Shown: one piece after another, positions 9,923 to 16,663 of the stretch
Position numbering within the stretch: the stretch's first letter is position 1
Layout: every line of letters begins with the position of its first letter
From: an uncultured Bacteroidota bacterium
GTDB taxonomy: Bacteria; Bacteroidota; Bacteroidia; Flavobacteriales; BACL11
Direction: 5' to 3'
Length of the DNA: 64,000 nt
Assembly (NCBI GenBank): GCA_902587125.1
Contig: CACIJW010000002.1
Span: forward strand, 1 to 64,000
The notes under the pieces: generated by a model
The model's input: only the letters and a program-made list of their open reading frames with translations
Told to the model about the DNA's origin: nothing
Database searches by the model: none
Program-made: the position numbers and the translations under genes

Positions 9923-9976
9923 AATATGTTATACAAAAATGTTATATTAGCCACGTTTAATCAAAAATATTATAAT

Positions 9977-10705
9977 ATGTTATTACTAGACGCAGTAAGA
10001 CTAAGTCCAACAGATTATGTTGCATTTACGTTCTTTATTGGCTTTATGGCCATGTTTGCAGCTACTGTATTTTTCTTTGCAGAAATGAGATCAGTTGATA
10101 AAAAGTGGAGAATGTCTCTTCTTGTATCAGCTCTTATTACAGGTATTGCTGCTGTTCACTATTACTACATGAGAGATTACTATCTAGCATTTGGTGAAAA
10201 CCCAACATTCTACAGATATGTTGACTGGATTTTAACAGTTCCTCTAATGTGTGTTGAATTTTATTTATTAACAAGAATGGCTGGAGCTACAAAAAGCTTA
10301 ATGTGGAAGTTAATTATTGCATCAACATGGATGCTAATTGCTGGTTACATTGGTGAGTCATTCAATCCAGAAGGTGGAAGTACTTCTCACTCTGTTACAT
10401 GGGGTGTTATTTCAACTTTAGGTTACTTATACGTTCTTTATACTGCATGGTACGGAGAAGTTGCTCAGCTTGCTGAGAAGAGTAATGATGAAGTTGTTAA
10501 GAGAGGTGTTAGAACATTAGCTTGGTTTGTATTAGTTGGATGGGCGATCTATCCAATTGGATACATGTGTATGCCAGGTGGATGGTTAAGTGGAGTTATG
10601 AATCCTTCGGATGTTGACCTATGGTACAACATTGCTGATGTAATTAATAAAGTAGGATTTGGACTTGTAGTATACAATATTGCAGTAACTTCAAAATCTG
10701 AATAA
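9977..10705 (+). CDS. Proteorhodopsin, H+-pump type, Met at spectral-tuning site
   Basis: Seven-TM rhodopsin; RYVDWILTVPLMCVEFYLL (D97/T101/E108 equivalents, M at position 105); H75 equivalent in AAVHYYYMRD; Schiff-base Lys in YNIADVINKVGFG. Start revised to the ATG at 9977. Confidence 0.97.
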   Translation: MLLLDAVRLSPTDYVAFTFFIGFMAMFAATVFFFAEMRSVDKKWRMSLLVSALITGIAAVHYYYMRDYYLAFGENPTFYRYVDWILTVPLMCVEFYLLTRMAGATKSLMWKLIIASTWMLIAGYIGESFNPEGGSTSHSVTWGVISTLGYLYVLYTAWYGEVAQLAEKSNDEVVKRGVRTLAWFVLVGWAIYPIGYMCMPGGWLSGVMNPSDVDLWYNIADVINKVGFGLVVYNIAVTSKSE

Positions 10706-10764: not shown

Positions 10765-11664
10765 ATGAATAAGTTTACATTTGTTTTATTAGTAGTGGTA
10801 TATTTTTTATCATTAATTTACCAATCCTTTGGTCATCTTACAGTCGATAATCAATTAGTTTTTTGTATTGCTCTAGTATCTTTATTTGGTATTCCACATG
10901 GCTCTATAGACCATGTATTATATGTAAGCAAGATGAAATCAAGTAAATTGTTTTTCTATTCTTTTTATTTTGGATTGATATTTTTATATGTTTTACTTTG
11001 GCTTTATTTTCCTATTATTTCATTTGTTTTCTTTCTGTTTCTTTCAGCTTATCATTTTGGAGAATCTCAATTTCATTTTGTGTCCTTTAATATGTCTTTT
11101 TTAAAAAATATTTTCTATTTCGTCTATGGAATATTCGTAATATCCACTTTAATTTATTTTAATATTCCAGAACTTAAGTCACTAAGTCAATTTAATCAGG
11201 ATACAATTATTTTAGACAAAATATTTGATGAAAACATAATTTCATATGCATACTATCTATCACTTTTCATAATTATTATATTCAAATTATCATTGTTGTA
11301 CTTTAAAAAATTTTCTGTAGGTGGATTATTTAATGAAATATTTACTTTGTTTTTAATTAATATTATTTCATTTATTTTTCCGTTTGTTATATCCTTTACT
11401 CTTTATTTTGTTTTGCTTCATTCAATACCTGTAATGTTTCAAGAATTTAAGTTTTTAAAAGAGGATAATTCGAATTTTAACTATAGAAACTTCATTTTGT
11501 TATTATTACCATACACTCTTGTAAGTTTGTTTTTTACATTCATAATTTTTTATTGCTCCTACATCCAGTTAATTGATATTTCTATACCTTATTTATCAAT
11601 GATTATTATTTCTGTTATTACATTACCACATGCTGTTGTAATGAATCTTTTCTATAACAAATAA
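10765..11664 (+). CDS. blh: Brp/Blh family beta-carotene 15,15'-dioxygenase (retinal synthesis)
   Basis: Polytopic; His motifs FGIPHGSIDHVLY, AYHFGESQFHF, LHSIPVMFQE, LPHAVVM; next to proteorhodopsin. Confidence 0.92.
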   Translation: MNKFTFVLLVVVYFLSLIYQSFGHLTVDNQLVFCIALVSLFGIPHGSIDHVLYVSKMKSSKLFFYSFYFGLIFLYVLLWLYFPIISFVFFLFLSAYHFGESQFHFVSFNMSFLKNIFYFVYGIFVISTLIYFNIPELKSLSQFNQDTIILDKIFDENIISYAYYLSLFIIIIFKLSLLYFKKFSVGGLFNEIFTLFLINIISFIFPFVISFTLYFVLLHSIPVMFQEFKFLKEDNSNFNYRNFILLLLPYTLVSLFFTFIIFYCSYIQLIDISIPYLSMIIISVITLPHAVVMNLFYNK

Positions 11665-11701: not shown

Positions 11702-12484
11702 ATGCAAAAAGAAGTATTTTTTTCAATCAACAAGATAAATTCTGTGCCAGATAACATCCTCGGTGTTTACTTTTTATATAATAAGAGCAATGAAATATTA
11801 TACATAGGCAAAAGTGTTAATATCAAAAAAAGAGTTAAACAACATATATCTTCGGGAAGAATATACATGAGATTACAAATTCAAAAAATTGGATATATTA
11901 AAATGCATTCTGAATTTGAGAGTTTGATGTTTGAATCTCAACTAGTAAAGAAATTTAGACCTATTTATAACAGACGTTTGAGGAAATCAAAGAATTCAAT
12001 CTATTTATCTTATAGTTACTCCAAAAATTCATACGGTCAATTCAATTTCTTACAAAATAATGATAACTCAAATTCAATTTCATTTACATCTAAACACAAA
12101 GCGAAAAAATTTCTACAAAGAATTGGAGCAGAATTTAACCTATGTGATGTTGTTAATGGTATTGAAAAATCAAATAGCTATTGTTTTAATTATCATCTTA
12201 AAAAATGTAAAGGTGCATGCGTTAATTTAGAGAATATCATGACTTACAATGATAGATTTAATAGTTGCATAAAAAAGTATTTCTACACGTGTAAGAAAAA
12301 CTATATTATCTCTTTCAATGATTCAATAAAAAACAAATCATATGCTGTAATAAATGATTCTCAAGTGAAAGAGTTTGGAGTTAGTAATATAAAAAGTTAC
12401 TCTGTTGACTATCCCTCAAAAGATGAAATTAGGATAATTAATTTGTTTAAAGGAAAATATAAATTTAGAATTGCTGATGTTTGA
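11702..12484 (+). CDS. GIY-YIG nuclease, Cho/UvrC N-terminal-like
   Basis: GVYFLYNKSNEILYIGKSVNIKKRVKQH (GIY-YIG), ESLMFESQLVKKFRPIYN, then UvrC-like Cys segment YCFNYHLKKCKGACVN. Confidence 0.75.
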   Translation: MQKEVFFSINKINSVPDNILGVYFLYNKSNEILYIGKSVNIKKRVKQHISSGRIYMRLQIQKIGYIKMHSEFESLMFESQLVKKFRPIYNRRLRKSKNSIYLSYSYSKNSYGQFNFLQNNDNSNSISFTSKHKAKKFLQRIGAEFNLCDVVNGIEKSNSYCFNYHLKKCKGACVNLENIMTYNDRFNSCIKKYFYTCKKNYIISFNDSIKNKSYAVINDSQVKEFGVSNIKSYSVDYPSKDEIRIINLFKGKYKFRIADV

Positions 12485-13580
12485 AACAAATTATAATTCG
12501 GTCTTAGAAAAAATTGAAAAATTTGAAATCCATGATTATGCAAAAACAAGAAATTTCTATAATGGACATGTTTCAATGTTATCACCATATCTGTCAAGAG
12601 GGTTAATAACAGTTTCTTTTTTAATTGATTTTTTTTCTAATAAGGGATTAAGATATAACCAAATTTATAAATTTCTTCAGGAGCTTGCCTGGAGAGAATA
12701 CTTCCAAACCAATTGGTTTTTAAAAAAAGAGGATATAATCCTTGATAAAAATCAAGTTTCCAAAAATTATAATAAAATTCCTATAGCAATTGTCAATCAC
12801 TCAACTGGCATAAATGCTGTTGATCTAGCTATTAAGAATCTTTACGAATTTGGGTATATGCATAATCATATGAGAATGTACGTATCATCAATAGTGTGTA
12901 ATATTTCTGGATGTCACTGGCTAGATGCATCAAAATGGATGTATTACCATTTATTTGATGCTGACTGGGGTAGTAATTCTCAGAACTGGCAGTGGATTAG
13001 TGGAACCTCCAGATCTAAAAAATACTTTGCAAATCAAGACAATATAAATAAATATTTTGGTACATCTCAAAGAAATACATTTTTAGACACGAGCTATGAT
13101 TATATCACTGAAGTTGACGAGCCAAAACAATTAAAAGAAAAATCTAAAATTGAATTAAATACAAACTTAGACCACATAAAGTCTGATTTATTTAATTTAA
13201 ATCAAAATCTAGATACACTGATTTATAATTTTTATAATCTAGATGTAAATTGGAGACAAGAAAAAGATTATAACCGGATATTGTTAATTGATACTGATTT
13301 TTTTTCAAAATATCCTATTTCTAATGAATCTTTAAAATTTTTTATAAATCTCTCAAAAAACATTAATGGATTAAAAATCTTTGTTGGTACATTTGAAGAG
13401 ATGATATTAAAGCATAAACCAAATAGAGTATTTTACAAAGAGCATCCAACTAATCTGCAATATGCTGGAATTGAGGACAAAAGAGAATCATACTTTTCTC
13501 AAGACAGTCTTTATCCATCATTTTTTAAGTTTTGGAACTCCAACCAAAAAAATATTAAAAAATTATTTAGTGAAAGTTGA
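12477..13580 (+). CDS. Photolyase-like flavoprotein with N-terminal FAD-binding domain and C-terminal alpha/beta domain
   Basis: RNFYNGHVSMLSPYLSRGLIT, LQELAWREYF, GYMHNHMRMYVSSIV, LFDADWGSNSQNWQW match the photolyase FAD-binding domain. No preceding antenna domain; C-terminal RILLIDTDFF...GLKIFVGTFEEM resembles an alpha/beta domain. Track start is 12471; the second ATG is at 12477. Confidence 0.8.
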   Translation: MFETNYNSVLEKIEKFEIHDYAKTRNFYNGHVSMLSPYLSRGLITVSFLIDFFSNKGLRYNQIYKFLQELAWREYFQTNWFLKKEDIILDKNQVSKNYNKIPIAIVNHSTGINAVDLAIKNLYEFGYMHNHMRMYVSSIVCNISGCHWLDASKWMYYHLFDADWGSNSQNWQWISGTSRSKKYFANQDNINKYFGTSQRNTFLDTSYDYITEVDEPKQLKEKSKIELNTNLDHIKSDLFNLNQNLDTLIYNFYNLDVNWRQEKDYNRILLIDTDFFSKYPISNESLKFFINLSKNINGLKIFVGTFEEMILKHKPNRVFYKEHPTNLQYAGIEDKRESYFSQDSLYPSFFKFWNSNQKNIKKLFSES

Positions 13581-14199
13581 GTTCGATAATATAATAAGAA
13601 TAGAAAAAATTAAAAGGTTAAATCTAATTAACTCAGTAGTTGGTGTTAAGCCTGTTGTCTTAGTTGGAACCACTGGACACAATCAAATTAATAATCTTGC
13701 AATATTTAGTTCATTAGTTCATATGGGAAGTAATCCACCACTTTTAGCACTAAACTTTAGACCAGTAAATAACACTAAAAGACATACTTATGAAAACATT
13801 ATTCAAAACAAATTCTTTTCTATAAATCACATTAATGAGGATATGATTGACAACGCTCACTTAACATCTTTGAAGTTTCCAAAAGAGATATCAGAGTTTG
13901 AGAATTGCAACATTGAAATGGAAAATTTGAGTGGAGTCCCTTTTGTAAAGCACAGCCCTTTAAAAATGTTAATGAAGTTTAAAGAAGAAATAATTGTTAA
14001 AAGTAATAATTGTAGAATCATTATTTCTGAAATAAAAAAAATAATAATCAATGACGCTTATTTAGACGATAATTTTGAGATCGATTATAATAAGTGCAAA
14101 TCTGTATCTGTTGGAAGTCTAAATACTTATTACTCTACGCAAAAGATAAAAAGTGTTCCATATATGAATTATGAACAATTTATAAAAAATGAAAAATAA
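13570..14199 (+). CDS. Flavin reductase-like (FMN-binding split barrel) domain protein
   Basis: [42 protein letters not shown]. Probable GTG start at 13570; 11-bp overlap with the upstream gene. Confidence 0.72.
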
Positions 14200-14323
14200 A
14201 GAATCTAAGATTTGCATTATATGTAAAAGGCCTTTTACTTGGAGAAAAAAGTGGGAAAGAGATTGGTTAAATGTAAAATATTGTAGTAAAAAATGTAGAA
14301 TGAATAAAAAATTTATAGCATGA
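14189..14323 (+). CDS. DUF2256-type small zinc-finger-like protein (44 aa), absent from ORF track
   Basis: Translates to [44 protein letters not shown]; CxxC...RPFxWRKKW...YCSxxCR; overlaps both neighbours. Confidence 0.88.
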
Positions 14324-15201
14324 TAAAATTATCAAACTATGTTGGTAAAACACCTTTAATACCCTTATCAATTGGTAAATATACAGTGTGGGGAAAAGCA
14401 GAACTTATGAACCCCGGAGGGAGTGTCAAAGATAGAATGGCAAGCTTCATATTAAATGATGCAGAAGAAAAAAAAATAATCAAGAAAGGAGATACTCTTT
14501 GTGAGGCAACATCAGGAAATACGGGAATTTCTTTCTCGATGTTAGCGGCTGAGAGAGGTTACAAAATGGTCATCATAATGCCTTCTAACATGTCTGAGGA
14601 AAGAAAAAAAATATTTAAATATTACGGTGCAGAATTAATTGAAACAGATGCTGGAGATTTTGATGGAGCTATTGAACTTAGAGATAATTTATGTTCTAAA
14701 AACGGTTGGTTTAATTGTGATCAGTTCCACAATAAGTTAAATATTAGAGCACATTACGAAACCACTGGTCCTGAAATTTTTGAATCCATCTCTGATAAAT
14801 TTGTTCCAGATGCTTTTATTTTGGGTACAGGAACAGGTGGAACATTAATGGGTACAGGCAAATACTTAAAGAAAAAATGGCCTGATATTAAAATTATTGC
14901 CATAGAGCCCGCAGAATCACCGGTCATGAGCGGTGGTGAGCCTGGGCTACATGGTATTCAAGGTATTGGAGATGGTAGTAAGTTTCTTGTAGATCTCGAT
15001 TTTGTAGACGAAGTTCATTGCATTAAAACATCAACTTCAGAATCTGCTTCGAAACACCTTGCAAAAAAATATGGTTTGTTTGTTGGAGTTAGTGCCGGAG
15101 CTAATTTATATTCCTCATTTGATTGGCTTAGAAAAAATAATTGTAAAAATGCGATTACAATTATTTGTGATAGAGGAGAGAGGTACTTTAGCTGTTTGTA
15201 A
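14320..15201 (+). CDS. Cysteine synthase family PLP-dependent enzyme
   Basis: [14 protein letters not shown]-Lys motif, [31 protein letters not shown]; ends [10 protein letters not shown]. Confidence 0.9.
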
Positions 15202-15202
15202 T

Positions 15203-16663
15203 ATGTCTAAAGTTGGCTTAGTTTTTCCCCATCAACTTTTTGAAGAAATTGTTTTTTCAAATGATGTTAAAGAAATTTTTGTGATAGAGCATCCGCTATT
15301 TTTTACTCAGTATAAATTTCATAAGGCCAAATTAATTTTTCATAGAGCATCTATGAAAAACTACTCTGATTTTCTCAAAAAACTTGGTTTTAAAATAGAC
15401 TACATTGATTTTAAAGAATATGAAAATTTATTTAATTCAATAAATAACAATGTTGAAGTTGAATACATTGATACAGTTGATAATTATATAGAAAAAGATT
15501 TAGAAAAAAAATTTTCAAAATTAAACATAAGATACAATTGTATTCAGAGCCCAATGTTTTTAAATGAAGAACAAGAACTAGAGGGTTTTTTTAAAAATAA
15601 AAAGAAATTATTACAGACATCTTTTTATATCTCAGAGAGAAAAAAAAGAAATATATTGATAGATAATTTTGAAAAACCTCTTTTTGGAAAGTGGACATTT
15701 GACACTGAGAATAGAAAAAAGTATCCTGAAAAAAAGATACCTCCTTCTGTAAAATTTCCAACAAAGAATAAATATATTACCGATGCTGAGGATTATATTA
15801 AGGCTAATTTTTCAGATAATTTTGGAGAAATAAGTGACGTTTTTAGTTATCCCATAAATTTTGATGATTCTAAAATTTGGTTGAAAAATTTTATTTCAGA
15901 AAGATTTAAAGAGTATGGAATATATCAAGATGCCATAGTTTCAAATAACAGCATACTCAATCATAGTGTTTTATCTCCACTCATGAACTCTGGATTATTA
16001 ACACCGAAAGTTATAATAGAGCAGGTAAAGGGAATGCATGAAATAATTCCAATTAATTCCTTAGAGGGTTTCATAAGGCAAATTATGGGTTGGAGAGAAT
16101 TTATAAGAGGAGTCTATGTTTTTTATGGAACAAAACAGAGAAATTCAAATTATTTCAATTTCAAAAGAAAAATTCCAAAAAGTTTCTATTTAGCAGAAAC
16201 TGGAATCGAACCCATTGACGAAACAATAAAAAAAATAAATAAAAGTGCTTATGCATCCCACATTGAAAGGTTGATGATATTGGGAAATTTTATGTCACTT
16301 TGTGAATTTAGACCAAATGATGTTTATCAATGGTTCATGGAACTTTTTATTGATTCATATGATTGGGTAATGGTTCCAAATGTTTATGGAATGAGTCAAT
16401 TTTCTGATGGTGGTTTAATGTCAACAAAGCCATATATAAGCAGCAGTAATTATATTTTAAAAATGAGTAACTTTAAAAAAGGGGCATGGACAGAAATATG
16501 GGATGCTCTTTATTGGAATTTTATCAGTAATTACGCTGACCATCTTAGAAAAAATATGAGAATGAGATTTATGGTTAAAATGTACGAAAAGTTCAATCCT
16601 GAAAAAAAAGAAAAAATCAAAACACTTTCAAAAGATTTTTTAAATAAATTAGAGCAGTCATAA
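15203..16663 (+). CDS. Cryptochrome/photolyase family protein related to PhrB/FeS-BCP, lacking Fe-S cysteines
   Basis: VGLVFPHQLFEE N-terminus (deoxyribodipyrimidine photolyase-related), GFIRQIMGWREFIRGVY, YASHIERLMILGNFM, VPNVYGMSQFSDGGLMSTKPYISSSNYI. Start revised to ATG 15203. Confidence 0.9.
   Translation: MSKVGLVFPHQLFEEIVFSNDVKEIFVIEHPLFFTQYKFHKAKLIFHRASMKNYSDFLKKLGFKIDYIDFKEYENLFNSINNNVEVEYIDTVDNYIEKDLEKKFSKLNIRYNCIQSPMFLNEEQELEGFFKNKKKLLQTSFYISERKKRNILIDNFEKPLFGKWTFDTENRKKYPEKKIPPSVKFPTKNKYITDAEDYIKANFSDNFGEISDVFSYPINFDDSKIWLKNFISERFKEYGIYQDAIVSNNSILNHSVLSPLMNSGLLTPKVIIEQVKGMHEIIPINSLEGFIRQIMGWREFIRGVYVFYGTKQRNSNYFNFKRKIPKSFYLAETGIEPIDETIKKINKSAYASHIERLMILGNFMSLCEFRPNDVYQWFMELFIDSYDWVMVPNVYGMSQFSDGGLMSTKPYISSSNYILKMSNFKKGAWTEIWDALYWNFISNYADHLRKNMRMRFMVKMYEKFNPEKKEKIKTLSKDFLNKLEQS

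Follow-up and report, generated by a model that had tools for sequence, protein, structure and literature searches.

Rhodopsin pumps are common in sunlit oceans, and a docked carotenoid broadens the range of light that they use or alters their speed. One carotenoid-binding pump is Kin4B8, a member of the xanthorhodopsin family. It fails to bind beta-carotene, which has no hydroxyl, and two of its helix F residues matter for the ligand: zeaxanthin binding by the S208A variant is down to 2% of the wild-type level, and in Y209F the energy transfer falls from about 40% to about 18% (PMC12308411). Two proteorhodopsin-family proteins, KR1 (Dokdonia eikasta) and EinA29G6, bind lutein and zeaxanthin, and carry Thr/Asp and Thr/Glu at the corresponding positions (PMC12308411). 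A tyrosine at Kin4B8 position 204 is conserved among the known carotenoid-binding rhodopsins (PMC12308411), and Thr157 of Kin4B8 has been named as a pocket residue (PMC13093654). Salinibacter xanthorhodopsin (XR) and Gloeobacter rhodopsin (GR) bind ketocarotenoids and both have Met at position 208 (PMC12308411), so a polar residue there is not required for every carotenoid. Fujiwara et al. 2025 describe carotenoids on marine Bacteroidota rhodopsins as photocycle-accelerating pigments, so light harvesting may not be their sole effect.

The proteorhodopsin gene and its fenestration glycine

The stretch of DNA analysed (the window, 64,000 nt) is the start of contig C2 of a 1.54 Mb host genome in 36 contigs that is 96% complete. 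Its proteorhodopsin gene (9977..10705, + strand, 242 aa) matches PF01036 (2.2e-47), and the best solved match is 9jov/9jou (3e-80). The longest ORF spans 9926-10705 (+), but the ATG at 9977 is the likelier start, since in several relatives the matched stretch contains a stop upstream of it, and residues are numbered from this ATG here. Helix C carries the proton-pump motif Asp83, Thr87 and Glu94 (10223..10258, +; D97, T101 and E108 of green proteorhodopsin, GPR), with Met91 at the colour-tuning site, and helix G carries the predicted retinal-binding Lys225 (10649..10651, +). All five residues are invariant in an alignment of 27 relatives, and Asp/Thr/Glu in helix C with Lys in helix G is the combination that defines proton-pumping proteorhodopsins. 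The genome has one rhodopsin copy, and other public genomes encode proteins 98-99% identical to it. The predicted product is a proton-pumping proteorhodopsin of green type, of a kind that is ordinary for marine Bacteroidota.

The next gene, blh (10765..11664, +; PF15461, 2.6e-37; TIGR03753 above cutoff), encodes a predicted beta-carotene 15,15'-dioxygenase making retinal. The region 3′ of blh (window 11702-16663) is a light-associated neighbourhood, encoding a GIY-YIG protein, a photolyase-type FAD-binding protein, a flavin reductase-like protein, a cysteine-synthase-like ORF and a DPRP photolyase-related protein.

The initial annotation had counted along helix E and placed a glycine at the position of GPR Phe152. 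The sequence it gave, SVTWGVISTLGYLYVLY, is present and the count is correct: helix E aligns without gaps to that of GPR (AWPAFIIGCLAWVYMIYELWAGE / SVTWGVISTLGYLYVLYTAWYGE), which sets Gly143 (GGT, 10403..10405, +, inside the 10400-10420 interval of that annotation) at Phe152. A multiple alignment with XR (sequence identical to 3ddl), Kin4B8 (7ytb), GR (6nwd), NM-R1 (9jov), GPR and Med12 PR likewise bears out a glycine at this site rather than a bulky residue, and sets it at XR Gly156 and Kin4B8 Gly153, the glycine that is typical of carotenoid-binding (antenna) rhodopsins. At the same site GPR has Phe and Med12 PR has Trp, against Gly in all 99 aligned Bacteroidota relatives, which include members of the host genus and, further out, records labelled Saprospiraceae, Cyclobacteriaceae, Flammeovirgaceae and Thermaurantimonas; this difference argues that the glycine is there beyond chance. 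A 2026 paper reported Gly at the site for all Bacteroidota proteorhodopsins of one subtree (PMC13043013). Judged from these alignments, the fenestration glycine is ordinary for Bacteroidota and already documented, not a distinctive trait of this protein.

The AlphaFold model of the protein (mean pLDDT 87.4, pTM 0.85) has its best fold match in the zeaxanthin-bound cryo-EM structure of NM-R1 (9jou; TM 0.89/0.93, 53% identity), and compares with zeaxanthin-bound Kin4B8 (8i2z) at TM 0.83/0.79. NM-R1 (9jov is an entry of the same protein family) is therefore the closest solved relative by both sequence and fold. It is a proteorhodopsin-family protein that shares the fenestration Gly and the Tyr204 equivalent, but it differs in nearly half of its residues. 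Kin4B8 and XR share the fenestration Gly and a helix E WGxxST, but they belong to the xanthorhodopsin family, are only about 30% identical and have other helix F pocket residues. GPR has the same proton-pump motif and family fold, and differs in that Phe152 fills the site of Gly143.

The rest of the putative carotenoid pocket

Other parts of the putative pocket are partly retained and partly lost. The helix E motif WGVIST is near-equal to WGVLST of Kin4B8 (WGLFSG in NM-R1), which sets Thr147 (10415..10417, +), in the fenestration region, at Kin4B8 Thr157. Tyr196 (10562..10564, +) aligns with Kin4B8 Tyr204, the tyrosine that is found in carotenoid-binding (antenna) rhodopsins. The flavobacterial proteorhodopsin KR1, which has a carotenoid site, has Tyr204 and Met205 in common with the present protein (PMC12308411).

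The differences lie four residues further along helix F, where the stretch reads YMCMPGGW here, YAMGSYGW in Kin4B8 and YMAGTPGW in NM-R1. Pro200 and Gly201 (10574..10579, +) occupy the positions of Kin4B8 Ser208 and Tyr209, so that the polar pair of the hydroxy-xanthophyll binders (Kin4B8, KR1, EinA29G6) is replaced by two non-polar residues. Position 208 is Thr in NM-R1, and in KR1, compared by its published residues only, positions 208/209 are Thr and Asp (PMC12308411). Among the 99 relatives position 208 is Pro in 59, Asp in 28 and Glu in 12, and position 209 is always Gly. The 208 site (window 10574-10576) varies only between these three residues within an otherwise nearly fixed YMCMxGGW in the 99 Bacteroidota rhodopsins. 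No link was seen between the residue at 208 and the presence of crtZ, and several Pro208 genomes also carry crtZ. As far as the aligned residues indicate, the opening is kept in the host genus and the known hydroxyl anchor is absent.

Carotenoid genes and a crtZ interrupted in the assembly

Genes for the carotenoid pathway are spread over several contigs. They comprise crtI (C2:93295-94764), crtB (C2:94758-95594), a CrtYcd-type lycopene cyclase adjoining a CruF-like hydratase (C20:5590-6943), a CrtD desaturase (C1:170860-172386) scoring above its curated cutoff, and a candidate crtE, a polyprenyl synthase recognised from its motif alone. With this predicted gene set the host makes beta-ring carotenoids. 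A MerR-type regulator stands ahead of CrtI-CrtB-CrtZ, in that order, with CruF, CrtD and CrtY elsewhere, an arrangement that recalls the myxol gene set of Nonlabens spongiae (PMC11855829). The regulator, divergent to crtI at L005 8262-9137 (-), has B12-binding domains and shows weak similarity to the light-sensing repressor CarH.

The initial annotation noted that crtZ is absent from the window, which is correct, but the genome does carry one. This sole crtZ (C2:96240-96684, equal to L005 12240-12684) lies 86 kb downstream of the rhodopsin gene on the same contig, and is frameshifted as assembled. Its first frame stops after HRRLPPP at a run of nine C, and the remainder, SKTKSKYIKAIRKAHKIHHKNRNKDHCVNFGMLIVPFKYFK, is in another frame. 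Read through the frameshift, the product matches PF04116 and, at 95-96%, the intact CrtZ of two congeners (G003 and G004). The broken product would be without the final HxxHH, the last histidine motif, which should be needed for activity in this di-iron family.

No other run of C or G in the assembly is as long as these nine C. Shorter ones, of 7-8 C or G, fall in open frames where checked; these give no support to a general homopolymer error, although a single local error may still have occurred. Among 287 orthologues compared with G003, crtZ has the only credible frameshift. A second candidate, at position 5669 of contig C9, was rejected, as the ORF runs antisense across two neighbouring genes. 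In the relatives, G003 and G004 included, the C runs that code for these three prolines are interrupted. The frameshift may have arisen by a genuine recent slip, may be a variant of the strain, or may be an assembly error confined to this site.

Across genomes, crtZ was found in 16 of 20 with a rhodopsin and 21 of 40 others (Fisher p=0.05, kinship ignored and the host's own broken crtZ counted). The two genes are about 2.3 kb apart in one genome (G049), and no crtZ-like motif was found beside the rhodopsin loci, a result of little weight because the flanks covered were 2.5 kb or less. Co-occurrence and the proximity in G049 lend weak support to a functional link between rhodopsin and crtZ.

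A conserved opening and its possible ligand

The initial annotation proposed that the pump may use a light-harvesting carotenoid. The glycine is real and the solved relative at 53% identity is zeaxanthin-bound, so this much of the proposal holds; the inference to an antenna is weakened for this organism, since Pro200 stands at the Ser208 site and crtZ is frameshifted as assembled.

The reading that we favour, with moderate confidence, is an ordinary proton-pumping proteorhodopsin with blh, in which the clade-wide Gly lets a hydroxylated carotenoid dock as in NM-R1, and for which the ligand may be missing in this genome. In outline, blh would supply retinal, and the helix E Gly would leave the beta-ionone ring of retinal open towards the membrane, where a carotenoid ring could dock as zeaxanthin does in NM-R1. 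The likeliest ligand in the lineage would be a carotenoid hydroxylated by CrtZ, either monocyclic (myxol or saproxanthin type) or zeaxanthin, and the bound carotenoid would pass on excitation energy or alter the photocycle. Such docking chemistry is plausible because the closest solved relative carries zeaxanthin, and carotenoid binding is plausible for the lineage. Gly in 99/99, NM-R1 as the best fold match, retention of the Tyr204 and Thr157 equivalents, crtI, crtB, crtYcd, cruF and crtD in the genome, intact crtZ in two congeners and the proximity in G049 are consistent with it. Replacement of the Ser208/Tyr209 anchors by Pro/Gly, the crtZ frameshift and weak rhodopsin-crtZ co-occurrence point the other way. 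The assembly shows an interrupted crtZ frame; if this frameshift is real, the ligand, and with it antenna function, may be absent in the studied strain.

A possible but less probable account takes the glycine as an inherited clade trait without a carotenoid partner here, so that the protein would be a retinal-only pump with lipid filling the site and no hydroxylated ligand made. The frameshift at the run of nine C, the sole credible one among 287 orthologues and so not the mark of a generally error-prone assembly, fits this account, as do the absence of the hydroxyl anchors and the failure of Kin4B8 to bind hydroxyl-free beta-carotene (PMC12308411). However, one homopolymer miscount in the assembly would look identical, G003 and G004 have an intact crtZ alongside rhodopsins 99% identical to this one, and the Gly is invariant throughout the clade.

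A keto-carotenoid antenna, as in xanthorhodopsin and Gloeobacter rhodopsin, is improbable: the non-polar Pro at 208 (Met in XR and GR) and the resemblance of helix E WGVIST to XR WGFLST would suit it, but no CrtW-type (FA_desaturase-family) ketolase was found in the 96%-complete genome, and the score of the second CrtI-like protein marks it as CrtD and is far under the CrtO ketolase cutoff. Very improbable is a slipped-strand switch at the run of nine C, by which xanthophyll hydroxylation, and with it the carotenoid partner of the rhodopsin, would be toggled within the population; a phase-variable tract conserved across relatives was rejected, since their C runs are interrupted.

All 99 proteins sampled from this clade retain the docking Gly, while the site of the hydroxyl anchor needed by Kin4B8 is Pro in 59 of them and in the others Asp or Glu. 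With the Gly kept and the anchor site different from that of Kin4B8, the clade would be useful for testing whether Gly alone predicts an antenna.
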